Source: Roseitranquillus sediminis (GTDB taxonomy: Bacteria > Pseudomonadota > Alphaproteobacteria > Rhodobacterales > Rhodobacteraceae). Taken from it: 64,000 nucleotides of DNA. The stretch is from positions 186,001 through 250,000 of the forward strand of contig NZ_JAFFOB010000005.1 in assembly GCF_016918935.1 (NCBI RefSeq). Reading direction: 5' to 3'. The notes below the pieces were generated by a model. It was not told the DNA's origin. It saw only the letters and a list, made by a program, of their open reading frames with translations, and did not search any database. Shown piece after piece: positions 2,293 to 28,560 of this stretch (position 1 is its first letter; every line of letters starts with the position of its first letter). A program made the position numbers and the translations under genes.

Positions 2293-2546
2293 CGTGTTTT
2301 TCCTCCCTTTTCCCGCGGGATCTCTGCCCGCTTATTGTTACAACCCGTTAGGACGCGGGCGGCTGAATGTCAATGCAACAGTGAGGCAATGGGGCTGGAG
2401 CTAAGGTGCGGACGATGAGACAATCGCCAGGGCGGCAGGCTCTTGGCGGGGCGAAGCGCAGGTCTGACAAGGGCTTGCGGTGACGCAGGCGGTGTCATAC
2501 GGACGAGCTCTCGAACATTGTCCTACATCCGGCTATGGGAGGCGAC

Positions 2547-9110: not shown

Positions 9111-10841
9111 TCAGTGGCGCGGCAGCCGCACGTGCAGGATCACGGAGGTGCCCGACCGCGCCGTCTCGACCGCCTCCGCCACCATCGGCGCCACGTCTTC
9201 CGGCTCCGTGAGCGTGAGGCCCGTGAAGCCGAACATGGCTGCCATCGCCGCGAAGTCGGTGTCCGAACGGAAGTCGGAGGCGTAGTCGCCTCCGCCCTTC
9301 GCCGCGCCGTCCGGGTAGACCCGGAGAGTCGATTCCTTCACCGCCGACCAGCCCGCGTTGTCGAGGATCACCGTCAGCATCGGCAGCCCGTATTGCCGCG
9401 AGACCGCCAGCATCGACGCGGGGCAGTTGTAGTAGAACGCCCCATCCCCCACGATCTGGACGAGCAGCGTCTCCGGCCGCGCCAGTTTGTAGCCAAGCGC
9501 CATGCCGCCGGAGGCTCCGAGCCCGCCGCCCGCCGTCCGCGTCATCGTGCCGGGAAGCGGACGCGGGATCTGCTGCACCATCGCCGGCTGGTTCCGCACC
9601 GCCTCGTGGATGATCATGTCCTCCGGCCGCAGCGCCTGCCCCAGCGCCCGCAGCACGTGCCGCGGGTTCAGCGCACCCGAGCCTCCGGGATCGGCCGCCG
9701 CCTCTTCCGCAACCCGGCGCCGTTTCGCGCCGTTCTGCTTCAGCGCCGACACCCGCCGCGCCGCGGCCGCGGCCTGCGCCTCGCTTCGCCGCGCCTCCAC
9801 CTCCGCGATGAGCTGGCGGAGGATGGTGGCACTTTTCCCCTCGATCCGCAGATCAGCCGGGAAGCTCCAGATCGGCGAGCCAGTCTTGAGCGCGTCGATG
9901 TCGATGTGCGCCCAGAAGGCATCCGGCGACGGCTCGGACTGAGACGGGATCCACGGCACGTCGCTGTCCACGATCAGACCAACATCGGCCTCGGACAGCC
10001 GCTGCCCCGGAATGCCGCCGGCAAAGCAGTCCATCTCGTGGTTCACGTTCGTGACCATGGCGTTCTCGACCACCGCCGCGCCGAGCAGCACCGCCAGCCG
10101 CTCGATCGCTTCCGACGTGCCGGGCGTTCTGCCGCCGTAGGAGGTCACGATCAGCGGCCGCTCCGCCGCGAGCAGCCGTAGCGCCAGGTCCCCCAGCGCC
10201 CCCTCCGGCGCGCCGCCCGGCGCGAGCGGGCCGTGCTTGTCTGCCGGAAATGGACGCAGCCGCGACGGACTGGCCGTTCCGGTCAGCGCCTCCCGCGGGA
10301 GCATCAGGTAGACAGGCCCCTGAGCTCCCGACTGCATAACCGTGTGCGCCCGACGGACCACCTCGCCCGCATGCGCGGCCGACTGCAGCGTATACTCCCA
10401 CTTCACGTAAGGCCGGACCACCGCACCCTGATCATAGGGCTCCTGGATGAAGTGGACGTAGTTGTCCCGCGTCCCCGGCAGCTCCCCGTGGCTGGTATAG
10501 GGCGCCTTGCCCGCCATCAGCAGCACGGGCAAGCGAGATCGGCAGGCGTTGTGCATTCCGTTTGCGGCATTGGCGGTGCCGACGTCGACATGCACCAGCA
10601 CCCCCTGCCCGCGCCCCGTCGCCATCGCATAGCCGAGCGCCATGTGAATGGCGGTGTTCTCGTGCGGGCAGAGGACCATCTTCGGCGGCTCGCGGCCTTC
10701 CGCGCGCCAGCGGGCCATTTCCTCGATCAGCGGGGCATGGTCGGTGCCGAGGTTCGAGAAGACGTACTCGATGCCGACATCGACGAGAGCCTCGAGCAAG
10801 TAGTGCGCGGCGGTATGCGTCTCGGTCACAGCTGCGTCCAT
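9111..10841 (-). CDS. Thiamine diphosphate-binding enzyme, acetolactate synthase-like
   Basis: A 576-residue ThDP enzyme paralogous to, but clearly different from, the one at 6167. The catalytic glutamate is in CPHENTAIH near residue 62 and the C-terminal GDGAFYYN motif near residue 463. A lysine/arginine-rich segment (KQNGAKRRRR-like, near residue 370) separates the central and PP domains. It is the last gene of the long minus-strand cluster, 10 bases after tctA, which suggests that it acts on the compound brought in by the TctCBA transporter or on a downstream 2-oxoacid. Carboligase and decarboxylase activities cannot be told apart by eye. Confidence 0.87.
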   Translation of the reverse strand: MDAAVTETHTAAHYLLEALVDVGIEYVFSNLGTDHAPLIEEMARWRAEGREPPKMVLCPHENTAIHMALGYAMATGRGQGVLVHVDVGTANAANGMHNACRSRLPVLLMAGKAPYTSHGELPGTRDNYVHFIQEPYDQGAVVRPYVKWEYTLQSAAHAGEVVRRAHTVMQSGAQGPVYLMLPREALTGTASPSRLRPFPADKHGPLAPGGAPEGALGDLALRLLAAERPLIVTSYGGRTPGTSEAIERLAVLLGAAVVENAMVTNVNHEMDCFAGGIPGQRLSEADVGLIVDSDVPWIPSQSEPSPDAFWAHIDIDALKTGSPIWSFPADLRIEGKSATILRQLIAEVEARRSEAQAAAAARRVSALKQNGAKRRRVAEEAAADPGGSGALNPRHVLRALGQALRPEDMIIHEAVRNQPAMVQQIPRPLPGTMTRTAGGGLGASGGMALGYKLARPETLLVQIVGDGAFYYNCPASMLAVSRQYGLPMLTVILDNAGWSAVKESTLRVYPDGAAKGGGDYASDFRSDTDFAAMAAMFGFTGLTLTEPEDVAPMVAEAVETARSGTSVILHVRLPRH

Positions 10842-10851
10842 CGCGCCATCC

Positions 10852-12369
10852 TCACATATTGGTTTCGGCGTCGCCGCCCTCGTGGGCGCCGGACTTCTTC
10901 GCGGGCTTCAGCCATACCCAGAGCAGGAGGCACATGAAGGCGAGCGTCACCGCGCTGATCGGCCGGGTGATGAAAACCGTCGGATCCATGCGGCTCGCGG
11001 TGAGCGCGTTTCTGAGGTTCTGCTCGAGGATCGGCCCGAGGACGATGCCCAGCACCGCCGGCGCCGTCGGGATCTTGAAGCGGACCATCAGGTAGCCGAG
11101 CACACCGAACATGATGACGAGCTTCAGGTAGTAGGGGTTCGAGGCTAGAGAGAAGGTCCCCGCCGCCGCCACCACGAGGATCACGGGCACCATGATCCCG
11201 TGCGGGATCGTCAGCACCTTCGCCGCGAGCCCCCGTCCCGCCAGCCCGAGCACCAGCATCAGGATGTTCGAGCAGAGGAGCAGGACAAGGATCGCATAGA
11301 AGAGCTCGGTGTTCTGCGGGATGAAGAACGGTCCGGCCTCGATGCCCTGGATCAGCAGCGCGCCGATTAGAACTGCGGTCACCGGGTCGCCGGGAATGCC
11401 GAGGGTCAAGAGCGGGACCAGCGCGCCACCCGTGACGGCGTTGTTCGAGACCTCGCAGGAAATCACGCCCTTCACATCGCCCTTGCCGTACCGGTCCTTG
11501 GGACCCGCGGTGCGCAGCGCATCGGAATAGCTGACCCAGGACGCAATGGAGGGGCCGGTGCCGGGCAGAATGCCGATCAGCGCGCCAATCGTCGCCGACT
11601 TGAACATCAACCACTTGTTGCGAAACATCTCGCCCCAGACACTGGCGACGCTGGTGCGCTCCTGCACCGGCAGGATCTCGGCATCCATGTCGCGCAGGCG
11701 CGTCAGGAGCATCATCTGCGCCACAGCGAAGAGGCCGATCAGCGCCGCGGTGGTTGGAATGCCGCCGAGGAGGTTCGGCTCGCCGAAGGTGAAGCGGCTG
11801 ACGCCTGATACAGGGTCGAGGCCGACCGTGGAGGCGAGGATGCCGATGAAGGCAGCCGTCAGCCCCTTCATCATGGAGCCCTTGGAGATGCCGGCGACGC
11901 AGACGATACCGACGAGGGCAAAGGTAAAGTATTCGACGGAAGTGAAGCTGAGGGCGACCCTCGCGAGCGACGGCGCGATCAGCGCCAGCAGCGTCAGCGA
12001 AAAGAGCCCGCCGACGAACGAGGAGGAGATCGCCGTCACGATCGCCCGGTCCCCCTGCCCAGCCTGCGCCAGCGCATAGCCGTCGAGCGCCGTCGCGGCC
12101 GAGCCCGGCGCCCCCGGCGTGTTGATCAGGATTGCCGGGATCGAGCCCGCGAAATATCCGGAGCAGTAGATGCCGAGGAGCAGCGCCATCGAGGTCACGG
12201 GCCCCATTGCGTAGGTCACCGGCAGAAAGAGCACGATCGCCGACGTGGCCGTAAGGCCCGGCGCGGCGCCGAAAACCAACCCGATAATCGCGCCGAGAAA
12301 CACGAAAAGGAGGACCCACGGGTCCGCGACGGCTTGGAGGCCGCCCAAAAGGTTTACCATCAGGTCCAT
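10852..12369 (-). CDS. tctA: Tripartite tricarboxylate transporter large permease, TctA
   Basis: A 505-residue membrane protein, the large permease of a tripartite tricarboxylate transporter. About a dozen hydrophobic segments are visible. The early GAAPGLTATSAI motif near residue 34 and the ILPGTGPSIASWVSY repeat near residue 257 are the conserved ligand-site loops of TctA. Its start overlaps the end of tctB by ten bases. Together with TctB and the periplasmic TctC it would import a carboxylate using an ion gradient. Characterised members carry citrate, phthalate or terephthalate; here the catabolic neighbours favour an aromatic carboxylate (inference). Confidence 0.95.
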   Translation of the reverse strand: MDLMVNLLGGLQAVADPWVLLFVFLGAIIGLVFGAAPGLTATSAIVLFLPVTYAMGPVTSMALLLGIYCSGYFAGSIPAILINTPGAPGSAATALDGYALAQAGQGDRAIVTAISSSFVGGLFSLTLLALIAPSLARVALSFTSVEYFTFALVGIVCVAGISKGSMMKGLTAAFIGILASTVGLDPVSGVSRFTFGEPNLLGGIPTTAALIGLFAVAQMMLLTRLRDMDAEILPVQERTSVASVWGEMFRNKWLMFKSATIGALIGILPGTGPSIASWVSYSDALRTAGPKDRYGKGDVKGVISCEVSNNAVTGGALVPLLTLGIPGDPVTAVLIGALLIQGIEAGPFFIPQNTELFYAILVLLLCSNILMLVLGLAGRGLAAKVLTIPHGIMVPVILVVAAAGTFSLASNPYYLKLVIMFGVLGYLMVRFKIPTAPAVLGIVLGPILEQNLRNALTASRMDPTVFITRPISAVTLAFMCLLLWVWLKPAKKSGAHEGGDAETNM

Positions 12370-12800
12370 ATCGGAAGCACCAGTTGGAAGCCGCGAGTGA
12401 ATGCGTAGTAGAGCCCGATGGAGAGGATCGAAGGCACCAGCACCAGCTGCATCACGCTACGAATGCCGAATGCCCACATGGTGACGACCGTCAGCGCCGC
12501 CGCGCCGACACGAAAGTCGATGTCGGCGAAGAACCAGTAGAACACGAACGCCATGCCGCCGACGACGGCCACGCGCCAGTCAACAAGCGCGGGCAAGGGT
12601 CTCGCCTCCGCCCTGAGGCCGCGTAACATGATGACCAGTCCGCAGATGACCAATCCGAGGGAGCACAGCAGCGGAAAAAAGTTCGGCGGCAGGGTGTTCG
12701 CAGTCGCCCCCGCCCGGATGTCGAGCGATAGGTACGCGACCAGCGTACCTATGGCCGCTATGAAACCGCCCGCGACTGTATCTTCGTTCTTCAAAGCCAT
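12360..12800 (-). CDS. tctB: Tripartite tricarboxylate transporter small subunit, TctB
   Basis: A 146-residue protein with four predicted membrane segments, the usual size and shape of TctB. Helices are visible near residues 12-30, 42-60, 75-92 and 100-140. It lies between tctC and tctA on the minus strand, overlapping tctA by ten bases and separated from tctC by a 73-base spacer with a GC-rich stem-loop. The small subunit has little sequence conservation, so the call rests largely on topology and on its place in the operon. Confidence 0.9.
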   Translation of the reverse strand: MALKNEDTVAGGFIAAIGTLVAYLSLDIRAGATANTLPPNFFPLLCSLGLVICGLVIMLRGLRAEARPLPALVDWRVAVVGGMAFVFYWFFADIDFRVGAAALTVVTMWAFGIRSVMQLVLVPSILSIGLYYAFTRGFQLVLPIWT

Positions 12801-12840
12801 TTTTCACCCCTCCCTGAGACGCCCGCCCGCGCGGGGGGCG

Positions 12841-12864
12841 CGGCCGGCCCCGGAGAGCCGGCCG
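12841..12864 (-). promoter_or_regulatory. Intercistronic stem-loop between tctC and tctB
   Basis: CGGCCGGC (12841-12848) pairs perfectly with GCCGGCCG (12857-12864) around an eight-base loop. It sits in the 73-base gap after tctC. Without a T run it is more likely an mRNA-stabilising or attenuating element than a full terminator. Such hairpins are common after binding-protein genes, where the protein must outnumber its permease. Confidence 0.55.
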
Positions 12865-12873
12865 GTCCGTCAT

Positions 12874-13848
12874 TTACTCAGCTAGGCCGGCTTCCTCGAG
12901 GATGGGGCGGAAGGCCTCCGCCTCCGCGTCGATGGCCGCGCGCATCTCCTCGGGCCCGAGATAGGCCGGGTCGAAGTAGAACTGGTCGAGCCTTGCCTCG
13001 AACTCCGGATCGGCGAGCGTCTCCTCGACGGCCGTGGAGATCTTGTCGATCGCTTCCTGCGGCGTGCCCTGGGGAGCAACGAGGCCGAACCACTGCGAGC
13101 GGAGGTAGTCGAGCCCCTGCTCCTGAAAGGTCGGCACGTCCGGCATGTACTTCCAGCGCTCCTCCGCGGCGAGGCCGAGCACGCGGATGTCGCCCTGACC
13201 CTGGTCGTCGAGCATCGGCGGGTAGTTGGAGCCGCCGCCCGAGAACACGTCGATCTCGCCCGAAAGGAGCTTGACCATCGCCTCCTGGCCGGAGTTCGAG
13301 TTGATGTAGGTCGCCTCGAGGTCGTTCTGCGCCAGGAATACTGCCATCGCGAGGTGCGGCCCTGAGCCGATGCCCGAGCCGGACCAATTGAGGTCCTCGC
13401 CGTTCCGCATTGCCTCGACGAGGTCCGTCAGCGACTGGTACGGGCTGTCGGCGCGCACGGCGAGGCCGGACGGGATCGACACCATCCGCGCGACCGTGTC
13501 GAAGCTGTCGGCTGTATAGGACGAGGAGTCCATGATCGGCCGCGCCGCCAGCGTTGAGTCCGACCCGACGCCGACCGTGTAGCCGTCCGCCGCCATTGTC
13601 GCGAGGTTGGCAAGGCCAACAGCGCCTCCCGCGCCAGGCTGGTTGATGATGACGATAGGCTGGCCCAGCCGCTCCTCGAGCGCCGGAGCGAACATGCGGG
13701 CGAGCTGGTCGGTCGCACCGCCCTGCCCGAACGGCACGATCATCTGGATCGGCTTCGTCGGGAAATCCTGGGCGGCCGCCGGCACCCCGGCGGCAAGCAA
13801 CACGGTAACCGCGGCTGCGGCACCTTTCAGCAAGAACTTGGGATTCAT
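12874..13848 (-). CDS. tctC: Tripartite tricarboxylate transporter substrate-binding protein, TctC/Bug family
   Basis: A 324-residue periplasmic binding protein of the Bug/TctC family with a clear signal peptide (hydrophobic residues 8-24, cleavage near AAA-QD). The conserved PIQMIVPFGQGGATDQLAR segment near residue 33 forms the first ligand loop, and the NSNSGQEAMVKLLSGEID block near residue 175 is also typical. It is first of tctCBA in transcription order. The Bug family binds carboxylates through water-mediated contacts with their carboxylate groups, which fits uptake of an aromatic or dicarboxylic acid. Confidence 0.94.
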   Translation of the reverse strand: MNPKFLLKGAAAAVTVLLAAGVPAAAQDFPTKPIQMIVPFGQGGATDQLARMFAPALEERLGQPIVIINQPGAGGAVGLANLATMAADGYTVGVGSDSTLAARPIMDSSSYTADSFDTVARMVSIPSGLAVRADSPYQSLTDLVEAMRNGEDLNWSGSGIGSGPHLAMAVFLAQNDLEATYINSNSGQEAMVKLLSGEIDVFSGGGSNYPPMLDDQGQGDIRVLGLAAEERWKYMPDVPTFQEQGLDYLRSQWFGLVAPQGTPQEAIDKISTAVEETLADPEFEARLDQFYFDPAYLGPEEMRAAIDAEAEAFRPILEEAGLAE

Positions 13849-13939
13849 TGGCTATCCTCCACCATTGTTGTTCGACATTCGACCACGGTTGGTCCCGTGC
13901 CTCTTCGTTCGCCAGCGTCTGCTGGCCGGTCGTTGCGAA

Positions 13940-13956
13940 GGCCCGGAGTCCGGGCC
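13940..13956 (-). terminator. GC stem-loop after the amidohydrolase gene
   Basis: GGCCCGG and CCGGGCC (13940-13946 and 13950-13956) form a seven-pair stem with an AGT loop. It lies in the 122-base gap between the amidohydrolase stop and the tctC start. There is no T tract, so it may pause or partially terminate transcription rather than end it. Confidence 0.4.
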
Positions 13957-13970
13957 GTCGCTCGCGCTCC

Positions 13971-15215
13971 TCAGGCCGAGGCGCGTGCCTTCTCCGCCTG
14001 CCGCGCGCGCTTGCGCTCGCTCAGCACGGGATCGAGGTTGAAGACCCGCTGGGCATTGCCGCCGAGGATGTTGCGCTTGGCGCCCTCGGTGAGGAACGGC
14101 AGGTCGTAGATGACGCTCGGCAGGTCCATGTCCCAGTGTGGGTAATCCGACGAGTAGAGAAGCTGCGTCTCCGCGCCGATCATCTCGAACGTGAGTTCGA
14201 GTGCCCGCGCGTTGTCCACCATCTCCATCGGCTGCGAGGTGTAGAACATCTCCCGCATGTACTCCGACGGCTTGCGCTTCAGCAGCGGCGCGTCCGAGTG
14301 GCGCATCATGTACTCGTTGTCGAGCCGCTGCATCAGGAACGGGAGCCATGCCAGCCCCGCCTCGATCCACATCACCTTCAACTTCGGGAACCGCTCCGGC
14401 AGGCCGTTGATGACCCAGTTCGACAGGTGCAGCATGTTGTGCCAGGCAAAGCCCAGCGCATGCAGCGTCAGGAACCGGTTGCAGGTCGAGAGCCCCGGCT
14501 CCTGCCCGCCGAGCCCGGTGTGGAAGCCGAGCGGCAGCCCCCGCTCCTCCAGCATCCGGTAGGTCCGCACATACGCGTTGTCGTAGACACCACGGTAGCG
14601 GGTCGACGTCACCATGAACCCAATCACGCCGGGCTTGTCGCCGAACATCTCGATGACCTTCAGACAGGCCTCGGGGTCGTTGAACGGAAGGTAGAGCATC
14701 GACTTCAGCCGATGGTCTTCCTGCAGCACCCGCTCGCAGAGCCAGCGGTTGTAGCCCATCGCCAGCTCCACCTCGAGGTCGACCCGCGGGCTCAGCCCGA
14801 GGTTGAGGAGTGGCGTCGGGAACATGCAGGCGATGTCGACGCCCATCGCGTCCATCCAACGACGCATCAGAGTGATGTCGCGGTGCGGCGTCTCTGGAAC
14901 CTCCTCCGACTTGCGGCGCGGGTAGCGTACGAGGCGGCCGCCGAGGTCCTGGTACTGCCCGAATCCGGTGGAGATTCCCTTGCGCGAGATGCCCTGGTAC
15001 AGGATCTCGTTCCGCATCACCTCGTTCTCGACGTAGTCGGCGATCTCCGTCGAGGCCTCGTTCTCGTAATGGTGACTGTCCACGTCCACGATCAGAAAGT
15101 CCTCGTAGCCGCGGGCGTCTGCCTGCTGCTGCGCGTGGGCGAGGTGGGTCGAGGTGTTGAAGGGTTCGGTGGTGAGGTCGCGGACCTTCGTCACCTGGCG
15201 GTCGGCGACGTTCAT
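13971..15215 (-). CDS. Amidohydrolase family protein, decarboxylase-like (ACMSD superfamily)
   Basis: A 414-residue metal-dependent amidohydrolase_2 protein. The N-terminal metal region is VDVDSHHYE near residue 42; later features are GFHTGLGG near residue 215, HNMLHL near residue 240 and the conserved SSDYPHWDMD near residue 365, which contains the catalytic aspartate. Relatives include decarboxylases and hydratases of aromatic acids. I chose the ATG at 15215 because it overlaps the stop of the upstream 118-residue gene as ATGA; a longer frame back to 15293 is a shadow. It is cotranscribed with the Rieske protein gene. The substrate is not known. Confidence 0.85.
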   Translation of the reverse strand: MNVADRQVTKVRDLTTEPFNTSTHLAHAQQQADARGYEDFLIVDVDSHHYENEASTEIADYVENEVMRNEILYQGISRKGISTGFGQYQDLGGRLVRYPRRKSEEVPETPHRDITLMRRWMDAMGVDIACMFPTPLLNLGLSPRVDLEVELAMGYNRWLCERVLQEDHRLKSMLYLPFNDPEACLKVIEMFGDKPGVIGFMVTSTRYRGVYDNAYVRTYRMLEERGLPLGFHTGLGGQEPGLSTCNRFLTLHALGFAWHNMLHLSNWVINGLPERFPKLKVMWIEAGLAWLPFLMQRLDNEYMMRHSDAPLLKRKPSEYMREMFYTSQPMEMVDNARALELTFEMIGAETQLLYSSDYPHWDMDLPSVIYDLPFLTEGAKRNILGGNAQRVFNLDPVLSERKRARQAEKARASA

Positions 15216-15568
15216 GCGGCGGCTCCGTGGCTGGACGGCACATCGGCGAGGCTGGTCTGCCGGGCGGGGCGGATGTTGGTCATCTGCTCCCAAAGGCCGA
15301 GTTCGAACACTTCCATCCGGCCGGCATCGAGCATCGCGAGAGAGGCGATGGCGATCTCGGTCGGAGTGACGGCGCTGTTGCGGCCGAACGGCATCAGCCG
15401 CGCGCCGGTCTCTGCCTTGGCGACGTAGAGGCGCACGGCAGCGGCCAGAACCTGGCCGAGCGCCTCGTCCCCGATCTCGTCGATGCGGCTTCCGACGACG
15501 GCGTCGTCGACCAGCGCCGCAATTTCACTCGCCGCATCGGCGAAGCGATCAGACGGTGATGTAGACAT
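15212..15568 (-). CDS. Unknown 118-residue protein
   Basis: An acidic, alanine-rich, probably helical cytosolic protein that I do not recognise. It lacks cysteines, a signal peptide and membrane segments. It is squeezed between the Rieske gene, whose end it overlaps by 20 bases, and the amidohydrolase, whose start overlaps its stop as ATGA. This coupling and its normal GC codon usage support a real gene. The second ATG (15568) is preferred because AGAGGG is six bases upstream. It could be a small subunit of the amidohydrolase or of a Rieske-dependent complex; both are guesses. Confidence 0.7.
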   Translation of the reverse strand: MSTSPSDRFADAASEIAALVDDAVVGSRIDEIGDEALGQVLAAAVRLYVAKAETGARLMPFGRNSAVTPTEIAIASLAMLDAGRMEVFELGLWEQMTNIRPARQTSLADVPSSHGAAA

Positions 15569-15914
15569 TTCCATCCCTCTCCGTGACCTCGTACTTCCGC
15601 AGCTTCAGCCTTGCGTCGCAGACGTTTACCCCGTCCTTCAGCCGGTACTCGTAGCCGTGCCAGGGGCAGACGATGTGCATGTCCGCCTTGTCGAACTTCT
15701 GTCCGTGAAACAGCCCCTCAGGGTCGACGTCATCGTAGACGCCCGCCATCCGAATGCCTTCGCAGACCGGCCCACCCTGGTGCGGGCAGAAGTTGCGGTA
15801 GGCGTAGAACGCGTCTTCGTGGCGGATCACGCCGATCTCAAGGTTGCCGATCTCAATGATCCGCGCCCCGCCCTCGGGAATGTCGTCACGCGCTGCGACA
15901 AGTATCTCGCTCAT
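15549..15914 (-). CDS. Rieske [2Fe-2S] ferredoxin-like protein
   Basis: A 121-residue Rieske protein. The two cluster motifs are CPHQGG near residue 43 and CPWHGYEY near residue 83, with both Cys-His pairs present. There is no catalytic oxygenase domain, signal peptide or membrane anchor, so it is a small electron carrier. A loop of about 35 residues between the motifs is longer than in the most compact ferredoxins. The ATG follows GGAGGAG, and an inverted repeat sits immediately upstream. No oxygenase or ferredoxin reductase gene is adjacent, so its partner is unclear; the molybdenum hydroxylase or an unlinked oxygenase are options. Confidence 0.9.
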   Translation of the reverse strand: MSEILVAARDDIPEGGARIIEIGNLEIGVIRHEDAFYAYRNFCPHQGGPVCEGIRMAGVYDDVDPEGLFHGQKFDKADMHIVCPWHGYEYRLKDGVNVCDARLKLRKYEVTERDGNVYITV

Positions 15915-15927
15915 TCTTCTCCTCCGT

Positions 15928-15963
15928 CAGATACCATATCGTATGGCATCATACGGTATCTGA
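15928..15963. promoter_or_regulatory. Inverted repeat between ubiD and the Rieske gene
   Basis: TCAGATACC (15928-15936) is the exact reverse complement of GGTATCTGA (15955-15963), and further TAC/GTA pairs lie between them, including CCATA/TATGG around 15934-15946. The element overlaps the last five codons of ubiD and ends 13 bases before the Rieske start. AT richness and symmetry suggest an operator, perhaps GntR type, for an internal promoter. Confidence 0.55.
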
Positions 15964-17649: not shown

Positions 17650-17676
17650 GTCGTCTCCTCCCCGACCCGCGCGCCG

Positions 17677-18273
17677 CTAGCCGACGTCGTCCGGCCGCCC
17701 CTTCTGTCCCTGCCACCGCACGACCGCGCCGCTCTCGATCCCGATCAGGTCGAGCGCCCGCCCCGCGAGGTGGTCAATCATCTCCATCACGTCCTGCGGC
17801 CGGTAGTAGAGTCCGACCACCGCCGGCATCACGATTGCGCCCGCCCGCGTCACGAGCTCCATTGCCGCGATGTGGCCCGCATGAAGCGGCGTCTCGCGAA
17901 AGAGAAGCACCACCCGACGCCGCTCCTTGAGGCACACGTCGGCGGCTCGCCCGATCAGGTCGTCGCTCAGGCAATGCGCAATCGCACCCAGCGTCTTCAC
18001 CGAGCATGGCGCGATGATCATGCCCTCGGCCTTGAACGAGCCGCTGGCGATCGACGCGCCGATGTCCTTGAAGCTGTGCACCACGTCCGCAAGCCGCGTC
18101 ACGTCGTCGGCGGTGTGATCGGTCTCGATCAGCAGCGTCCGCACGGCGGCGGGCGACATCACCAGATGCGTCTCGACGTCCGGCACGTCCCGCAGGATCT
18201 CGAGGAGCCGCACGCCGAGAATCGTCCCCGAGGCCCCCGTGATCCCGACAATGACGCGCCGCCGGTCCGCCAT
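17677..18273 (-). CDS. ubiX: UbiX family flavin prenyltransferase
   Basis: A 198-residue flavoprotein that prenylates FMN to make prFMN for UbiD. The N-terminal flavin-binding GITGASGTILGVRLLE is near residue 9, the SFKAEGMIIAPCSVKTLGAIA segment is near residue 84, and the RRVVLLFRETPLH block near residue 123 matches the family. The ATG overlaps the upstream hydrolase stop by one base (TGATG). A much longer frame upstream is only a shadow of that hydrolase. It lies directly before ubiD in the same operon. Confidence 0.94.
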   Translation of the reverse strand: MADRRRVIVGITGASGTILGVRLLEILRDVPDVETHLVMSPAAVRTLLIETDHTADDVTRLADVVHSFKDIGASIASGSFKAEGMIIAPCSVKTLGAIAHCLSDDLIGRAADVCLKERRRVVLLFRETPLHAGHIAAMELVTRAGAIVMPAVVGLYYRPQDVMEMIDHLAGRALDLIGIESGAVVRWQGQKGRPDDVG

Positions 18274-19082
18274 CAGTCCCGCTCGACCCTGGCCACGAAC
18301 CGTTCCAGCGCAGCCGCGAACTCCTCCGCCCGCTCGATCGCCGACACATGCGCCGCATCGAGCACCACCAGCTCCGCCTGCGGCACCAGCGCACTCATCT
18401 CCTCCGCCCGTGCCACGGGCGTCGACTGGTCCTGCGCGCCCGCGATGATCATCGCCGGGCCGTCCCAGGATGTCAGCGCTTGCGTCGCGTCCGCCATCGC
18501 CAGCACCGAACAGGCGGCGGCGTACCCTTCCGCGGGCATCCCCTCGAGCATCGTCCGCACCGCAGTCGCCGTCTGCGGCTCGGCGGAGCGGTACCCCTGC
18601 GTCAGCCACCGCTCCAGCGTCGGCTCCACAAGCTCGCCCCACTGGCCGCCTCGCGCCTGCGCTGCGCGCTCCTGCCACATCGTCGCCGGCGGAAAGCTCA
18701 CCGCCGTGTTCGCCAGCACCAGCCCCGCGACGCGCTCCGGCGCGTCCGCCGCCACCTGCATCGCCGTCAGCCCGCCGAGCGACAGCCCGCAGAGCACCGC
18801 CCGCTCCAGCCCCGTCGCGTCCATCACCCGCAGCACGTCCGCCGCGTAATCAGCAAGCGTCCCGTCCCCCGGCACCACGTCCGACTGCCCATGCCCGCGG
18901 GCATCGAAAGCCACCGTCCGCCGCTCGAGGCGATGCCGCACCGCCTCCCACATCGAGTGGTCCGCCGCGAGCGAGTTAAGGAACAGGACCGGAAGCCCCT
19001 CCTTCCGTGCGCTCTCCGAGACGAACATCCGCCGACCGTCCTCGAGCCGGATCCGCCGCTCGCTCATGCCTGCCTCGGCCAT
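18273..19082 (-). CDS. Alpha/beta hydrolase, 3-oxoadipate enol-lactonase-like
   Basis: A 269-residue alpha/beta hydrolase resembling PcaD. The oxyanion-hole region LNSLAADHSMW is near residue 32, the FDARGHGQSD strand near residue 57, the nucleophile serine in CGLSLGGLT near residue 101, and the catalytic histidine in DAAHVSAIE near residue 248. The start at 19082 overlaps the CoxG-like stop by one base; an ATG five codons in is an alternative. Enol-lactonases open lactones formed during ring cleavage, so a role in the same catabolic route is plausible; true substrate unknown. Confidence 0.87.
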   Translation of the reverse strand: MAEAGMSERRIRLEDGRRMFVSESARKEGLPVLFLNSLAADHSMWEAVRHRLERRTVAFDARGHGQSDVVPGDGTLADYAADVLRVMDATGLERAVLCGLSLGGLTAMQVAADAPERVAGLVLANTAVSFPPATMWQERAAQARGGQWGELVEPTLERWLTQGYRSAEPQTATAVRTMLEGMPAEGYAAACSVLAMADATQALTSWDGPAMIIAGAQDQSTPVARAEEMSALVPQAELVVLDAAHVSAIERAEEFAAALERFVARVERD

Positions 19083-19546
19083 CAGGCCGCCGCCTCGCCG
19101 CTCTCGGCGAAGTGCTTCCTGAGCGCAGTGAAGAACTGCTTCGTCAGGTGCTTCGCGACCGATCCCAGCACCCGCTGGCCGACCCCGGCCACCAGCCCGC
19201 CGATTTCGCCCGTTCCCTCGTAGTCGAGCCGCGATGTCCCCGGACCCGTCTCCTCGATCCGGAACTCGGCCGTCCCGTTGCCGGTGCCGAGACTGCCCCC
19301 GCCCGAGATGGTGATGCGGCAATGCACCGGCTCCTCCTTGTCGTGGAGCCGGACCTTGCCGTCGAAGCTGCCGCCGACAGCCGCGACCTTGAGTTGCAGC
19401 TTGACCTCGTAGGCGTCGGGTCCGGTCTCGACCATCTCCTTGCAGCCGGGGATGCACTTCGTCAGCACCGCGGGATCGTTCAGCCCCTCCCACAGCGCCT
19501 CGCGCGAGGCGGCGATCTCCTCGCTGCCCTTCAGCTCCATCTTCAT
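19082..19546 (-). CDS. CoxG-like SRPBCC protein
   Basis: A 154-residue protein of the CoxG/SRPBCC fold. The start region (LKGSEEIAASREALWEGLND) and the LTKCIPGCKEM segment near residue 30 are hallmarks of CoxG proteins. These proteins accompany molybdenum hydroxylases and are linked to membrane attachment or quinone coupling of CO dehydrogenase. The ATG at 19546 has GAGGAGGAG upstream. It is encoded 13 bases after the amidohydrolase in an operon with coxMSL-like genes. The C-terminus lacks a long hydrophobic tail, so membrane contact would be peripheral. Confidence 0.87.
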   Translation of the reverse strand: MKMELKGSEEIAASREALWEGLNDPAVLTKCIPGCKEMVETGPDAYEVKLQLKVAAVGGSFDGKVRLHDKEEPVHCRITISGGGSLGTGNGTAEFRIEETGPGTSRLDYEGTGEIGGLVAGVGQRVLGSVAKHLTKQFFTALRKHFAESGEAAA

Positions 19547-19559
19547 CGCGCTCTCCTCC

Positions 19560-20540
19560 TCATTCGCCCATGAGCCGGAGGGCAAGCCCGCCCTCGATCG
19601 ACTCTCGCGCGTCCTCATCAAGGTTCGCCTCGTCGAGGATCGTCCGCGGCGTTGGATCGCCGATCGGGAACGGCATGTCCGACCCCAGCATGATCCGGTC
19701 CGCCCCCACCGTCTCGATCAGGAGCCGCAGCGCCGCAGGGTCGTGCACCAGCGTGTCGTACCACAGCATCGACAGCGCCTTCTCCGGGTCCCCCATGTCC
19801 TCCGGGTGCAGCGAGTGGTTCCGCTTCAGCCGCCCGAGCACGTAGGGCAGTGCCGCGCCGCCGATGCCGACCAGGATCTTCGCCCGCGCATACTTTTCGA
19901 CGTGGCCCGAGTAGATGATGCGGCTTACGGCGATCAGCGAATCCGTCACCCGCCCGACCGCGTTCTCCATGCCCTTGAACTTCACCCGGTCGTCGCCCGC
20001 GTCAAAGACAGGGTGGATCGCGACGATGGCGCCGAGCGCGTCGGCTGCCTGCCAGAACGGGTCGAGCGATGCATCGTCGAGCACGCCGCCGCCATTGTCC
20101 GGCTGGGTGCCGATCATCGCGCCGCGGAAGCCCATCTCCCAAGCCTCGCGCAGCACCTCGGCGGCGAGTGCGCCGTCCTGCGTCGGCAGCACTGCGAGCG
20201 GGATGAAACGGCCGCCGCTTTCCTCCGCCGCCGCACTCAGGTGGCGGTTGATCGTCCTCGCCCACTCGGCGCCTTCCGCGGCCGGCATGTCGTTGCCGAA
20301 CATGTCGAGCCAGCCGCCGATTACCTGCCGGTCGATTCCATTCTCGTCCATCCAGCCAAGGCGCTTGTCGACACCCGTCAACCCCGGCGACACCGGCCGC
20401 GTCGGTGCCCTGCCCGCAAAGGCAAAAGACAAGCTCCCGTCCTTTGGCGTCATCGCGACGCTTCCGAACTCCGCCTTGCGGTCCTGCAGCTCCTCGAGCA
20501 GCCGCGGTGGAACGAGGTGGGCGTGCGCGTCGACGATCAT
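19560..20540 (-). CDS. Amidohydrolase 2 family protein, ACMSD-like
   Basis: A 326-residue TIM-barrel metal-dependent hydrolase or decarboxylase. The metal motif DAHAHLVPP is at residues 4-12, a further histidine lies in AIHPVFDAG near residue 176, and the catalytic aspartate in MLGSDMPFPIG near residue 290. The closest described group is the alpha-amino-beta-carboxymuconate semialdehyde decarboxylase superfamily, which removes carboxyl groups non-oxidatively. Its ATG overlaps the coxL-like stop as ATGA, so the decarboxylase may act on the hydroxylated product of that enzyme. This is a second member of the superfamily in the cluster. Confidence 0.88.
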   Translation of the reverse strand: MIVDAHAHLVPPRLLEELQDRKAEFGSVAMTPKDGSLSFAFAGRAPTRPVSPGLTGVDKRLGWMDENGIDRQVIGGWLDMFGNDMPAAEGAEWARTINRHLSAAAEESGGRFIPLAVLPTQDGALAAEVLREAWEMGFRGAMIGTQPDNGGGVLDDASLDPFWQAADALGAIVAIHPVFDAGDDRVKFKGMENAVGRVTDSLIAVSRIIYSGHVEKYARAKILVGIGGAALPYVLGRLKRNHSLHPEDMGDPEKALSMLWYDTLVHDPAALRLLIETVGADRIMLGSDMPFPIGDPTPRTILDEANLDEDARESIEGGLALRLMGE

Positions 20541-22933
20541 CTGTAACCTTTTCCTTGTTCTTCGGCGGCGGCGATCGCGTCGCTCACCGTGCTCATCCGT
20601 ATCGGCAGCTTGTCGAGGTGCACGCCCCAGGGCCGCACCGCGTCGTGGATCGCCCCCGAGATCGCCGCCGGCGCGCCGAGATAGCCCGACTCGCCAGACC
20701 CCTTCTGCCCGAACTCGGTCAGGGGCGAGGGCGTGCAGTGATGCACGATCTCCACCTCCGGCACCTCGTGCGCGGACGGCATCAGGTAGTCGAGGAAGCT
20801 CTGCGTCATGAGCTGCCCCTCCGCGTCGTAGGCAAACTCCTCGAGCAAGGCAGCACCGATCCCGTGCGCGATCCCGCCCAAGGTCATCCCCTTGACGATG
20901 TGCGGGTTGATCACCGTGCCGCAGTCATGCCCGATCACGTAGCGCCGGATCTCCGGCCGCGCGAGCACCGGGTCGAACACCATCAGGATCAGGTGGAACT
21001 CGAACGAGTAGCAGGGGTACATCTCCCCCTTCCCGTTCTCCGGCAGCCGCGCGTCCCCGGGCACCTGCTGCATGAAGCTCGCCGTCAGCCCGGGCTGGGT
21101 CCCTGGCGGCAGGTCGTCGAAGCGCCGGTGCGCCACGTCCACCACCTCGTCCCAGCTCACCGACTGCCCGGCGGGCCCGTGGATTGTCCCGCTCTCGTAG
21201 CGCAGCTGCTCCGCCGAAACGCCGAGCATCTGCCCCGCGATCGCAAGCATCTGTCGCTTCACGTCCTTCGCCGCGTTCGCCGCCGCCCCACCGAGCATGA
21301 TTGCCATCCGGCTCCCCACGGGCGAGTTGCCTGGCAGGCTCCCGAGACTGTCCGGCCGCACCACCCGGATCCGGTCCGGGTCGATCTCCAGCACCTCGCC
21401 GACCACCGTCGCCGCCAGCGTCTCGTGCCCCTGCCCGGAGCTCGTCGTGTGGATCGCCACCGTCACGTCGCCGAGACCGTCGATGTTGACCCGACTCCCC
21501 TCCATCCAGGTGGAGGTCTTGTTCTTCTCGTTGAGCAGCGGCTCGAACGAGGACCGCCCGCCCGAGGGCTCGAGGCACGAGGCGATCCCGATCCCCGCGC
21601 AGAGCCCCTCGGCCCGCAGCCGGTCCCGCTCCGCCACCAGCGCCTCGTAGTCCGCCGAAGCCAGCACCTTGTCGACCACCGTATGGTAATCCCCGGAGTC
21701 GTACTTGCTTCCCGACGGGATCTCGTAGGGAAACTCCTCCTTGCGGATGAAATTCCGCCGCCGGATCTCGATCCGGTCCATCCCAAGGTGCTCGGCGACC
21801 CGGTCCATCATCGTCTCGATGGCGTAGTTCGTCGGCGACTGGCCGAAGCCTCGCACCGCTTCCTGCACCGTCTTGTTGGTCGTCACCGACATCGCCCGGT
21901 ACTGGACCGAGCCGATCCGGTACGGTCCCACGATTGCCCCGATCGGCTTGCCGAGCTGGAACGGTGCCCGCCCCGCATAGGCGCCGGCATTGTCGAGCGC
22001 CCGCATCTTCATCGACCGCACCGTGCCGTCCCGGTCGAATGCCACCTCGATGTCGAAAATTCGCTCCGGCCCGTGCGCGTCACCCGCGCGCATGTTCTCC
22101 AGTCGGTCCTCGATCAGCCGCACCGGCCGCCCAAGCTTCCGCGCCAGGTAACCGCACAGCACCGTCTGCTTGATCCCGCGCTTCACTCCGTAGGAGCCGC
22201 CGACGTCGACGTCGTAATGCACCCGCACCGCGTTGCCCGGGATCTTCAGCGCCCGCGCGATCTGATCCGCGTATTTCGGCATCTGGATCGACGCCCAGAC
22301 GTCGAGCACCCCCTCCCAGGCGTGCCACTTCGCGATCACCCCGAAGGTCTCGATCGGCACCGTCGAGTTGCGCCCCCAAGTTACCCTGAGGCTCAGTCGA
22401 TCCTCCGCCGCCGCGAAGTCCTCCTCCACCGGACCCCAGTCAAAGGTGCGATCAAGGAGCAGGTTCGACCCATGCTCCGGATGGACCGGCGTCGCCCCCG
22501 GCTCCAGCGCCTCCTCCACGTCGACTACGTAGCCGAGCGGCTCCGTCTCGACCCGCACCTTCTCCGCCGCGTCCTCGGCCAGCGCCCGGCTCTCGGCCAC
22601 CACCGCCGCGATCCACTCGCCGGCATAGCGGTTCTGCCCGACCGCGAGCGGGAAGCGCTTCACGTTCGGGGTGTCGAGCCCGTTCATCATCGGGTTTACC
22701 GCCCCGGCGAGCTCCGCGCCGTCGATCACGGCGATCACGCCCGGCATTGCCAGCGCCTCCGACCCATCGATGCTGACGATCCGCGCCGCCGGCGCCTGCG
22801 CCGCGACCAGCGCCACATGCGCCATCTCCGGCATCTCGAGATCGGCGACGAACCTGCCGTGCCCGGCGACGAAGCGCCGGTCCTCGCGCACCCGGCGGTT
22901 GGCGGAAATGAAACGGCGGCCGGCCTCGCTCAT
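20537..22933 (-). CDS. Molybdenum hydroxylase large (Mo-cofactor) subunit, xanthine oxidase family
   Basis: A 798-residue molybdopterin-cytosine-dinucleotide-type subunit. It has the fused aldehyde oxidase a/b-hammerhead region (residues about 15-125) and the molybdenum-binding domain. GSGESGYLGAP near residue 750 contains the catalytic glutamate expected beside the Mo. The segment that carries AYxCSFR in CO dehydrogenase reads VRGFGQSPTN here, so it is not a form I CO dehydrogenase. The ATG at 22933 overlaps the small-subunit stop; the longer frame to 23257 is a shadow. It probably hydroxylates an aromatic or N-heterocyclic ring with water. Confidence 0.92.
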   Translation of the reverse strand: MSEAGRRFISANRRVREDRRFVAGHGRFVADLEMPEMAHVALVAAQAPAARIVSIDGSEALAMPGVIAVIDGAELAGAVNPMMNGLDTPNVKRFPLAVGQNRYAGEWIAAVVAESRALAEDAAEKVRVETEPLGYVVDVEEALEPGATPVHPEHGSNLLLDRTFDWGPVEEDFAAAEDRLSLRVTWGRNSTVPIETFGVIAKWHAWEGVLDVWASIQMPKYADQIARALKIPGNAVRVHYDVDVGGSYGVKRGIKQTVLCGYLARKLGRPVRLIEDRLENMRAGDAHGPERIFDIEVAFDRDGTVRSMKMRALDNAGAYAGRAPFQLGKPIGAIVGPYRIGSVQYRAMSVTTNKTVQEAVRGFGQSPTNYAIETMMDRVAEHLGMDRIEIRRRNFIRKEEFPYEIPSGSKYDSGDYHTVVDKVLASADYEALVAERDRLRAEGLCAGIGIASCLEPSGGRSSFEPLLNEKNKTSTWMEGSRVNIDGLGDVTVAIHTTSSGQGHETLAATVVGEVLEIDPDRIRVVRPDSLGSLPGNSPVGSRMAIMLGGAAANAAKDVKRQMLAIAGQMLGVSAEQLRYESGTIHGPAGQSVSWDEVVDVAHRRFDDLPPGTQPGLTASFMQQVPGDARLPENGKGEMYPCYSFEFHLILMVFDPVLARPEIRRYVIGHDCGTVINPHIVKGMTLGGIAHGIGAALLEEFAYDAEGQLMTQSFLDYLMPSAHEVPEVEIVHHCTPSPLTEFGQKGSGESGYLGAPAAISGAIHDAVRPWGVHLDKLPIRMSTVSDAIAAAEEQGKGYR

Positions 22934-23430
22934 CGCGCCGCCTCCGGGCTGCGAGCCACGTTGCTCTCCCGCAGCCGCTTTGCCGCCAGCCGGATCGCCT
23001 CGACGATCTGGCCATAGCCCGTGCAGCGGCAGATGTTGCCGGAGATCGCCTCGCGGATGTCGTGGTCCGTGGGCTCGTCGTTCTTCTCCAGCAGCGCCCG
23101 CGCCGCGATGACCATTCCGGGAGTGCAGTAGCCGCACTGGAGCCCATGCGTCTCGCAGAAGCTGTCCTGGATCATCCCCAGCTCGCCCTCTTCCGGCGCC
23201 ATCCCCTCGACCGTGGTGATCTCCATGTCGTCGCACTGCACCGCGAACATCAGGCACGAGCGCACTGCCTCACCGTCGACCAGCACGGTGCAGGCGCCGC
23301 ACACCCCATGCTCGCAGCCTGCATGAGTGCCTTTCAGTCCGCACTTGTCGCGCAGCGCGTCGAGCAGCGTCATCCGCGGCTCCACCTCGACCTCGCGCGT
23401 CCGGCCGTTGACCCTCAGTGATGTCCTCAT
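22930..23430 (-). CDS. Molybdenum hydroxylase small [2Fe-2S] subunit
   Basis: A 166-residue subunit with two [2Fe-2S] clusters. The plant-type ferredoxin cysteines occur in AGCEHGVCGACTV near residue 38 plus a later cysteine in RSCLM near residue 60; the C-terminal four-helix domain carries CGYCTPGMV near residue 100 and CRCTGYGQIVEAI near residue 134. It passes electrons between the Mo site and the FAD subunit. Its start overlaps the FAD-subunit stop and its stop overlaps the large-subunit start, both as ATGA-type junctions, so subunit production is coupled. Confidence 0.95.
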   Translation of the reverse strand: MRTSLRVNGRTREVEVEPRMTLLDALRDKCGLKGTHAGCEHGVCGACTVLVDGEAVRSCLMFAVQCDDMEITTVEGMAPEEGELGMIQDSFCETHGLQCGYCTPGMVIAARALLEKNDEPTDHDIREAISGNICRCTGYGQIVEAIRLAAKRLRESNVARSPEAAR

Positions 23431-24302
23431 TGCGCGCCCTCCTCCAGCGCCGCGTCGCGCGCCTCGGCGAGCGCCTGCTCCGCCAGCCGCGCCGCCGCCC
23501 GGCGCCGATACGTCGCCGTCGCATGGAGATCGTCGACGCAGTCGAGCCCCTCGAGCGCCTCGGCGACCGCCGCTTGGATATCCTGCTGCGACAGCGTCCC
23601 GCCCGCGAGCTCCGACACGTCCACCGCCACCGGCGCGTCTCCGACGCTGCCGATCCCGAGCCGCGCCTCCGTGCAGCTCCCGTCGCCGTCGAGCACCACC
23701 TGCGCCCCCGCCGAGGCGAAGGCGTAATCCCCGCGCCGCGAAGCGACCTCGCGGAAGCCAGCGCCGACCCTCCCCTTTGGGCGCTTCGGGAATGCCACAT
23801 GGGTCAGCAGCCCGCCCATCGGCGCCGCCGTCACCGTCGGTCCGAAGAAGAAGTCCTCCGGCGCGAACTCTTCCTCGCCCTCGTCGCTCAGGAAATGGAT
23901 CGTCGCCCCCAGCACCGTGGCCGCCAGCGAGATCTCCGCCGACGGATCGCCATGCGCGACAGACCCGCCCACCGTGCCCCGCGCCCGCGTCGGCGGATGT
24001 CCCACATGCGGCAGCGCCGCCGCCAGGAGCGGCACCTCGCGCCGGACCAGGTCCGACCGCAGCGCCTCCGCCTGCCGCGTCGCCGCGCGGATCACGACGC
24101 GCTCGCCGCTCTCCTCGATGCCCCTGAGGTCAGCCAGGCGGGACACATCGACCAGCACCGAAGGCCGCGAGAGACGCATCGCCAGCATCGGCACCAGGGT
24201 CTGCCCGCCGGCCAGCACACGCGAGTCCGGGTCCGCGCCGAGCGCCGCACGCGCCTCCTCGACCGAAGCCGGCCGGATGTATTCGAACGGTGCAGCCTTC
24301 AA
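23427..24302 (-). CDS. Molybdenum hydroxylase FAD-binding medium subunit
   Basis: A 291-residue FAD subunit of the CoxM/xanthine dehydrogenase FAD family. The pyrophosphate-binding AGGQTLVPMLAMRL near residue 32 and the second FAD motif (TRARGTVGGSVAHGDPSAE) near residue 105 are typical. Gene order is medium, small, large, then the accessory genes. It is 40 bases downstream of the NIPSNAP gene, so the operon probably begins there. The electron acceptor is unknown; a CoxG-like protein encoded downstream hints at the membrane quinone pool (inference). Confidence 0.94.
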   Translation of the reverse strand: MKAAPFEYIRPASVEEARAALGADPDSRVLAGGQTLVPMLAMRLSRPSVLVDVSRLADLRGIEESGERVVIRAATRQAEALRSDLVRREVPLLAAALPHVGHPPTRARGTVGGSVAHGDPSAEISLAATVLGATIHFLSDEGEEEFAPEDFFFGPTVTAAPMGGLLTHVAFPKRPKGRVGAGFREVASRRGDYAFASAGAQVVLDGDGSCTEARLGIGSVGDAPVAVDVSELAGGTLSQQDIQAAVAEALEGLDCVDDLHATATYRRRAAARLAEQALAEARDAALEEGAQ

Positions 24303-24342
24303 CGCCGATCCTCCTCCTCGAGCCGAGCCCTGTGCAGGGGTG

Positions 24343-24663
24343 TCAGGCGATTGGCAGTCCGGGCATCACGGGGCGGAGCACGCTCGCCCGCTGCTTGGCG
24401 ATCAGCGGCCCTTCCACCTCAGACCGAGCCTTCGCGTCCTTCCAGCCGGCATCGGCGCCGAATGACGCCCACGCCTTCTTCCGCGCCTCCTCGTCGGGAA
24501 AGCGGGTCAGGTAGGTCAGCATCTCGCTGTCCGCGTCGACAAACGCACCCACGAGCTCGATACCGTGGGAGGGGAAGCGCGGCGCCACTTCGGCCTCAAA
24601 CCGACGGCGGACGTCATCCGCCTTGCCGTCGATGTGCTCGTAGACACGCATCTCGTAGATCAT
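24343..24663 (-). CDS. NIPSNAP family protein
   Basis: A 106-residue ferredoxin-like alpha/beta-barrel protein. The start IYEMRVYEHIDGKADDVRRR and the central GAFVDADSEMLTYLTRF strand fit the NIPSNAP family, whose bacterial members are often found in catabolic operons with unclear roles. GGGAGGGG stands four bases before the ATG. As the first gene after the divergent regulator it marks the head of the long minus-strand transcript. No catalytic residues can be assigned by eye. Confidence 0.87.
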   Translation of the reverse strand: MIYEMRVYEHIDGKADDVRRRFEAEVAPRFPSHGIELVGAFVDADSEMLTYLTRFPDEEARKKAWASFGADAGWKDAKARSEVEGPLIAKQRASVLRPVMPGLPIA

Positions 24664-28285: not shown

Positions 28286-28560
28286 CAGGACCCTCGTCAG
28301 CGGCATGCGGCGCGCATTCGTCCGGACCGCCTGCATGTGGCTCTCAAAACCAGCTGCAGCGGGCTGGAGCAGATCAAGCTTCCTGCCCTCTGCATGTTGC
28401 TGGTCAAGCTGGCACAGAAGCTAGCGCCATTCCAGAGATCTGTCGCGGCCGGACCATCGCCAGCAGATCCTTTTGGGGCGAAGCGAGCAGACTTCCCGGC
28501 GAACGTCGCGCGGCAGGGTTCCGCCCCGAGAACGCTGGCAAGTCATAGCGTTCAGGTGCG

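Follow-up and report, generated by a model that had tools for sequence, protein, structure and literature searches.

A 16-gene operon of Roseitranquillus sediminis unites a putative amidohydrolase-related oxygenase with a molybdenum hydroxylase and a UbiD decarboxylase

The gene cluster described here, a run of 16 genes in a 64,000-nucleotide stretch of the Roseitranquillus sediminis genome (the window; G000:C34:186001-250000, from a 3.73 Mb genome in 37 contigs), resembles in parts two described catabolic pathways and one family of oxygenases. The hmf furan pathway (HmfABCDEFG) combines a molybdenum-dependent oxidase, UbiD, a UbiX-type accessory protein and a hydrolase, and runs on CoA esters (PMC12064950). 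The lumichrome (riboflavin) operon of Nocardioides simplex contains a xanthine-oxidase-type hydroxylase, a thiamine-diphosphate (ThDP) heterocycle decarboxylase and hydrolases (PMC12746152). Among the amidohydrolase-related oxygenases (AROs), 8FUM and 8FUN, which share their sequence with 6m1w, are AibH1H2, a Mn/Fe hydroxylase (PMC10401708). The metal ligands of AibH2 are Asp25, His27, His211, Glu265, Asp337 and His340, with a second-sphere Asp342, and an acidic residue at this last position is kept in binuclear enzymes only (PMC7782822). The proteins 8SM6 (SfbO) and 8SM7-8SM9 were located as candidate AROs via neighbouring small Rieske proteins; redox-active diiron centres are present in all four, C-H oxidation was demonstrated for SfbO, and the action of SfbO on PIPES indicates that an ARO can initiate dealkylation (PMC10811679). 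In the ARO literature cited, as far as available, a native reaction is reported for AibH2 and PtmU3, to which the lyngbyapeptin pathway may add one.

Genes of this high-GC sequence were called by codon likelihood and assigned to families by Pfam and NCBIfam scans. The 16 genes run on the minus strand from 24663 to 9111, with intergenic distances of -26 to +122 bp, such that neighbours either overlap or lie 10-122 bp apart. All genes named in the initial annotation, which had been made without database searches, were recovered on this strand, and the unit also holds two genes beyond that list, a NIPSNAP-family protein and a 120-aa protein that we call sml. In gene order, and in coordinates of the window, the operon consists of:

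24343..24663, minus strand: NIPSNAP-family protein, first gene of the operon (PF07978, E 8.7e-16)
23427..24302, minus strand: CoxM-type FAD subunit of the molybdenum hydroxylase, TTG start (PF00941, PF03450)
22930..23430, minus strand: CoxS-type [2Fe-2S] subunit (Fer2 and Fer2_2 in a scan of a partial stretch; translation)
20537..22933, minus strand: CoxL-type molybdenum-cofactor subunit (PF02738, PF20256)
19560..20540, minus strand: AH1, ACMSD-like amidohydrolase-superfamily protein, apparently of mononuclear type, with Ile226 at the catalytic-His position (PF04909)
19082..19546, minus strand: CoxG-like protein (PF06240, E 4.6e-27)
18273..19082, minus strand: PcaD-like alpha/beta hydrolase (TIGR02427, 224.6 bits, cut-off 255.85)
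17677..18273, minus strand: UbiX flavin prenyltransferase (TIGR00421, 215.1 bits, above cut-off)
15949..17649, minus strand: UbiD, prenylated-FMN (prFMN) decarboxylase, 566 aa (PF01977, PF20695, PF20696)
15549..15914, minus strand: small Rieske ferredoxin, proposed electron donor of AH2 (PF00355)
15212..15574, minus strand: sml, 120-aa protein, proposed further component of the ARO system (no Pfam match)
13971..15215, minus strand: AH2, putative amidohydrolase-related dinuclear oxygenase (PF04909, E 2.9e-24)
12874..13848, minus strand: TctC solute-binding protein (PF03401)
12360..12800, minus strand: TctB small membrane protein (PF07331)
10852..12369, minus strand: TctA permease (PF01970, E 2.4e-132)
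9111..10841, minus strand: ThDP enzyme, proposed 2-oxo-acid decarboxylase, last gene of the operon (NF006203, 609 bits, cut-off 456)

All three parts of a tripartite tricarboxylate transporter are thus present together, while family scans of the 16 genes detect no ring-cleavage dioxygenase, no CoA ligase and no AMP-binding enzyme. The operon shares with the hmf pathway the grouping of UbiD, UbiX, a molybdenum hydroxylase and a ring-product hydrolase (PMC12064950); in contrast to it, the operon has no CoA ligase (furoyl-CoA synthetase), carries Ser for the furan-recognition His of HmfF, and additionally holds the putative ARO, AH1, the ThDP enzyme and TctCBA. Identity with the hmf pathway was rejected on the first two of these differences. 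The lumichrome operon uses a P450, a Rieske dioxygenase and an extradiol dioxygenase, UbiD is not among the genes named in the available text, and its LumK and LumL are small subunits, whereas the ThDP enzyme of the window has 576 aa (PMC12746152); with so different a gene set, this identity was rejected as well. UbiD clusters on Sinorhizobium and Neorhizobium megaplasmids (L127, L203) have a UbiD of 55-56% identity, CoxL-type genes, CoxG, UbiX, TIGR02444, TctC and a ThDP enzyme, but their CoxL is distant (31-32% in L203), and the stretches seen contain none of AH1, AH2, sml and the small Rieske gene; no characterisation of such clusters was found in the literature. A titles-level search of the open-access literature, with subscription papers outside its scope, found no characterised pathway or operon with the gene set of the window, in agreement with the initial annotation, which knew of no named pathway for it. 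Its description of the composition as novel holds in that no characterised counterpart was found, but the set is not unique to the host genome, and its core recurs in many loci. Overall, the operon brings known enzyme families into a new combination, inside which lies what may be a new oxygenase subtype.

The candidate for that subtype is AH2, which is most likely a dinuclear, O2-dependent monooxygenase of the ARO type and not a decarboxylase, because it keeps the six AibH2 ligands, has proven or candidate AROs as its five closest PDB sequences, and adjoins a Rieske ferredoxin gene. These five are 8sm7, 8sm9, AibH2 (6m1w/8ful), SfbO (8sm6) and 8sm8; below them rank additional chains from these AibH1H2 entries and, after those, 5-carboxyvanillate decarboxylase. 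The equivalents of the six ligands, D46, H48, H232, E285, D357 and H360, are conserved in 31 of 31 aligned sequences, and D362, which corresponds to the second-sphere Asp342, in 30 of 31 (window included in both counts). For distribution we used an even draw of 385 genomes of the host's class, in which counts ignore relatedness. This survey yielded 33 AH2-type matches outside the window at 45% identity or more, and the 20 stretches inspected, which hold 25 of the 33, show a Rieske gene in 18 loci, in 17 of them less than 1 kb from AH2. AH2 resembles AibH2, SfbO and PtmU3 in the six metal ligands, the second-sphere Asp and the adjoining small Rieske ferredoxin; it differs in having a conserved extra neighbour, sml, absent from the portions consulted of the descriptions of these three, and its operon holds no AibH1-type partner and no AibF reductase. 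A titles-level search of the later open-access ARO literature returned no recognisable report of a native substrate for the AH2 subfamily. Where a small Rieske ferredoxin adjoins a PF04909 gene, the ligands of the latter should be checked before it is labelled a decarboxylase.

The small gene sml, which matches no Pfam family, is proposed as a further component of the ARO system, since 18 of its 19 homologues in the 385 genomes (window's copy apart) lie within 1 kb of an AH2-type gene. Seen from the other side, sml occurs within 3 kb of 23 of the 33 AH2-type genes. In G205 (L195) the order is Rieske-sml-AH2-CoxM-CoxS-CoxL-AH1, which ties the ARO trio to the CoxMSL-AH1 core in a second arrangement, and Rieske-sml-ARO trios are also found on Phaeobacter (L204) and Thioclava (L205) plasmids, where sml is annotated as hypothetical. 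The structure model of sml is mostly helical and, at a pLDDT of 52.6, too poor for use. Tentatively, and with confidence somewhat below balanced, we propose a separate class of dinuclear oxygenases with three components, AH2, the Rieske ferredoxin and sml, of which sml would be a dedicated effector or coupling subunit not described before. This class would feed a hybrid pathway of O2-dependent C-H hydroxylation, water-derived molybdenum hydroxylation and prFMN decarboxylation that opens a heteroaromatic acid without a ring-cleavage dioxygenase, and whose core would be spread over marine, freshwater and soil Proteobacteria (habitats from record titles). AH2 places an ARO in a tight metabolic context with a conserved small neighbour, making both its substrate and the role of that neighbour testable. 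The conserved region around the trio in L204 and L205 also encodes an alpha-hydroxy-acid oxidase, a VanB-type reductase and a large protein with a Rieske domain.

The second amidohydrolase-superfamily protein, AH1, presents a different picture. Residues 2-325 of its 326 align to human ACMSD, and the metal ligands (HxH, His, Asp) H6, H8, H176 and D288 are kept in 36-37 of 37 sequences. AH1 looks mononuclear, because in its SDMPFP motif Phe291 replaces the His of the DYPH motif of AH2 and AibH2, in all 37 sequences. At the position of human ACMSD His224, which we take to be the catalytic His, AH1 of the window and nine relatives have Ile (Ile226), and 27 of the 37 have His; decarboxylation by AH1 is doubtful given this Ile, and the two AH1 clades, Ile and His, may differ in function.

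The nearest solved structure to CoxL is quinoline 2-oxidoreductase (1t3q) and the third match is 6-hydroxypseudooxynicotine dehydrogenase; Glu748, presumably the catalytic Glu by analogy, is present in 55 of 55 aligned sequences. UbiD and UbiX are each the sole copy found in the host genome, which has two CoxL-like genes (E 1e-40 or better). In the EGPFGE motif of UbiD, E283 and E288 are kept in 115 of 115 sequences, and R188, a candidate catalytic Arg, is Arg in 96 and Asn in 15 of the 115. By these assignments UbiD appears to be the only clear decarboxylase of the operon, with the ThDP enzyme a plausible one. The PcaD-like hydrolase, falling below its family cut-off, is related to PcaD and not an equivalog; its nucleophile Ser is conserved in 21 and its His in 20 of 21 aligned sequences. 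The transporter was rejected as a guide to the substrate, as TctC, TRAP and ABC alternatives adjoin the same core.

When examining related loci, we considered 80 named ones, the best 80 of at least 560 encoded UbiD relatives (scan of genome contigs with a nine-sequence UbiD alignment). All 16 genes are colinear in two of the 80, Rhodobacterales bacterium HKCCE2091 (L047) and a metagenome-assembled genome of Oricola (L048). By gene clustering, CoxL is present in 51 of the 80 loci, AH1 in 36, UbiX in 30, the PcaD-like hydrolase in 18, NIPSNAP in 8, and Rieske and AH2 in 4 each. Several loci are cut by contig ends, and in the 53 with ample flanks (UbiD at least 8 kb from the locus start and at least 3 kb from its end), tallied apart, CoxL is present in 40 and AH1 in 28. 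With tblastn, which also admits distant paralogues and hence differs slightly, the 80 loci give CoxL in 54, PcaD-like in 20, NIPSNAP in 9 and Rieske in 5. In the 385 genomes, the UbiD clade (E 1e-60 or better) is found in 12, the CoxL clade (E 1e-200 or better) in 14 and both in 7, four of these seven belonging to one family. The seven, among them the window's genome, are exactly those whose best UbiD is at least 62% identical, and the two genes are physically linked in six of them. Co-occurrence of the operon genes thus exceeds chance.

CoxMSL-AH1 is the most recurrent core and is also found without UbiD nearby, because it is present in most of the inspected CoxL-clade loci that lack this UbiD. 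Loci of six of the seven such genomes were inspected (G281 left out): CoxMSL and AH1 occur together in L195, L208, L209 and L210, L207 is without AH1, and L206 ends at a contig edge after UbiX-CoxL-CoxS. Because the CoxMSL-AH1-UbiD core is shared by numerous Proteobacteria, most of them uncultured, the compound it acts on may be widespread in the environment. All four genomes sampled from the host's family (G022, G154, G252, G331) have none of UbiD, CoxL and AH2 at the clade limits used, which suggests that the operon was gained by transfer.

From what is read off the sequence, namely the operon, its family assignments, the ARO ligand set of AH2, the missing His of AH1 and the recurrence of the modules, we infer a substrate class, an order of steps and every activity. 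The operon would import and break down a heteroaromatic compound (N- or O-heterocycle) that is carboxylated and otherwise substituted, a reading in which our confidence is evenly balanced. In it, TctCBA would import the acid, and AH2 with the Rieske ferredoxin and sml, as a Mn/Fe or diiron monooxygenase, would hydroxylate a C-H bond, for example of a side substituent, possibly dealkylating it. CoxMSL, with CoxG as accessory, would add water-derived oxygen to the ring to give a lactam or lactone tautomer, and UbiD, its prFMN supplied by UbiX, would take off a ring carboxylate. The PcaD-like hydrolase and AH1 may then open or trim the ring product with no dioxygenase needed, and the ThDP enzyme would decarboxylate the resulting 2-oxo acid, an aldehyde dehydrogenase encoded nearby possibly acting next. 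Hydrolytic opening of a lactam or lactone is favoured because family scans of the operon find neither a ring-cleavage dioxygenase nor a CoA ligase. The closeness of CoxL to quinoline 2-oxidoreductase and of UbiD to HmfF, a furan-dicarboxylate decarboxylase, also speaks for a heteroaromatic substrate.

Several observations weigh against this heteroaromatic-acid reading. L049 and L050 (the latter from Lutibaculum baratangense AMV1) keep the rest of the operon in identical order without Rieske-sml-AH2 and without the ThDP gene, so that these are insertable modules and may be peripheral. Tight coupling of UbiD to CoxMSL-AH1 is disfavoured by 7 of the 14 CoxL-clade genomes, which lack this UbiD, and by G381, where UbiD lies about 265 kb from CoxMSL-AH1 and is thus unlinked. 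L093 has sml-Rieske-CoxMSL-AH1-UbiD without AH2, which argues against a strictly obligate bond of sml to AH2. The operon encodes no Rieske-ferredoxin oxidoreductase equivalent to AibF, AH1 may be inactive or in another role, and the heteroaromatic substrate is argued by analogy, since CoxL-like enzymes also oxidise aldehydes or CO. Finally, a His is key to furan specificity in HmfF (PMC7976604), the nearest structure to UbiD (6h6v/6h6x; 6H6V is HmfF, PMC8988006). By profile alignment, this position is Ser327 in UbiD and Ser in 115 of 115 aligned clade members. By this test the clade is not HmfF, though its substrate may still be a heteroaromatic ring of five members.

The two narrower versions of the heteroaromatic-acid reading, whose probabilities overlap with it, name the ring. 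In one, the substrate is a pyridine, pyrazine, pyrimidine or pteridine carboxylate, in which CoxMSL makes a lactam beside the ring nitrogen, and AH1, the PcaD-like hydrolase or both hydrolyse the ring. The two N-heterocycle enzymes among the CoxL matches speak for it, as do extra amidohydrolases in related loci (Amidohydro_1 family, f161, f163), isochorismatase and amidase in L093 and L052 (Propylenella binzhouense L72), and a nucleobase symporter in a distinct Caballeronia cluster of UbiD, UbiX, Mo hydroxylase and a double amidohydrolase, yet all of these additional genes lie outside the window's operon, and the lumichrome/quinoxaline pathway, which pairs a xanthine oxidase with a ThDP enzyme, names no UbiD in the available text and uses a Rieske dioxygenase (PMC12746152). 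This version seems possible to us, if on the doubtful side. The other is a CoA-independent relative of hmf, in which UbiD acts on a furan carboxylate, CoxMSL hydroxylates C5, the PcaD-like enzyme hydrolyses an enol-lactone to a 2-oxo acid, and the ThDP enzyme decarboxylates it. The nearness of UbiD to HmfF and the shared hmf gene list (PMC12064950) favour it. In several Burkholderiales loci an enoyl-CoA-hydratase-type gene adjoins CoxMSL at the position of AH1 in the window. Presumably hmfE is of this type; and the substrate of PcaD, 3-oxoadipate enol-lactone, is a 2-substituted butenolide. With Ser for the specificity His throughout the aligned clade, and no CoA ligase in the operon where hmf runs on CoA esters, we consider the furan version unlikely.

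Outside the heterocycles, CoxMSL could be an aromatic-aldehyde oxidase in an operon for a benzenoid acid, methoxylated or lignin-derived, with the ARO performing O-demethylation. Aldehyde oxidoreductases do belong to the xanthine oxidase family, AROs can start dealkylation as SfbO does on PIPES (PMC10811679), and several record titles of relatives suggest soils, lakes and groundwater; against this, the enzymes whose structures come nearest to CoxL have N-heterocycles or CO as substrates and not aldehydes, and family scans find no ring-cleavage dioxygenase in the operon, leaving this explanation with a small share of our confidence. The initial annotation had counted three unrelated decarboxylase types (UbiD, amidohydrolase, ThDP enzyme), and in its strongest form both amidohydrolases, UbiD and the ThDP enzyme would strip a multiply carboxylated aromatic acid. 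PF04909 does include ACMSD and 5-carboxyvanillate decarboxylase, and AH1 aligns to the former over nearly its full length, but the full dinuclear ligand set and Rieske neighbour of AH2, its nearest PDB sequences, and the Ile of AH1 make it very improbable. We rejected AH1 and AH2 as decarboxylases on these grounds, and with them falls the inference of multiple carboxylation, while the expectation of a carboxylated, probably heterocyclic substrate is retained. As to the class of substrate, our first guess is an N-heterocycle, with a furan or methoxylated benzenoid acid coming after it.

Around the operon, the window holds the following further genes:

24904..26271, plus strand: MocR-type regulator (GntR and aminotransferase domains), divergent, probable regulator of the operon (PF00392, PF00155)
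8609..9094, plus strand: TIGR02444/DUF2390 protein, convergent with the end of the operon (PF09523)
7921..8616, plus strand: GntR-FCD regulator (PF00392, PF07729)
6167..7918, plus strand: second ThDP enzyme (family scan)
4651..6078, minus strand: aldehyde dehydrogenase, candidate downstream step, its link to the operon conjectural (PF00171)
3..2295, minus strand: NMT1-type ABC importer, three genes, one cut by the window edge (family scan)

The MocR-type regulator keeps its position in L047, L048 and L050, and the TIGR02444/DUF2390 protein, the GntR-FCD regulator and the second ThDP enzyme keep theirs in L047 and L048. Homologues of the NMT1-type importer occur near this UbiD clade elsewhere, with the binding protein in 10 of the 80 loci. 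A promoter and terminator scan gave nothing firm (1 promoter-like site against 1.2 expected; 9 terminator-like sites against 5.8 expected). Next to the MocR-type regulator, at 26648-31817 on the minus strand, lie an animal-haem-peroxidase-type gene, ApbE and an FMN-binding/4Fe-4S protein.

The TIGR02444/DUF2390 protein is a candidate accessory of prFMN/UbiD enzymes. In 190 genomes, again with relatedness ignored, TIGR02444 is found in 61, UbiX above cut-off in 80 and both in 59, and 24 of 63 copies lie less than 1 kb and 32 less than 10 kb from UbiX. It recurs near UbiX/UbiD in the window and in L041, L047-L050, L056, L059, L064, L065, L071, L127 and L131. Its structure model is confident (pLDDT 94.1) and mostly helical, and no solved fold matched at E of 0.001 or below.

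On plasmid pNK83 of Caballeronia sp. NK8 (L132), a separate cluster joins UbiD-UbiX and a Mo hydroxylase to two adjoining amidohydrolases of 310 aa, an Asp/Glu racemase and a nucleobase symporter; it may encode a pathway for an N-heterocycle carboxylate. On a Bosea vestrisii plasmid (L131), a cluster resembling hmf, with an AMP-binding enzyme, a Mo hydroxylase, an enoyl-CoA hydratase and a thioesterase, is located close to UbiD-TIGR02444-UbiX, to TctC and to an aldehyde dehydrogenase. The record of the Thioclava plasmid mentioned above begins with a predicted BKC-1 beta-lactamase stretch. Four genomes of one family (G300, G378, G210, G104) show a large molybdenum hydroxylase expansion, with 20-36 CoxL-type genes each in 2.5-4.1 Mb, several of them adjoining UbiD paralogues.

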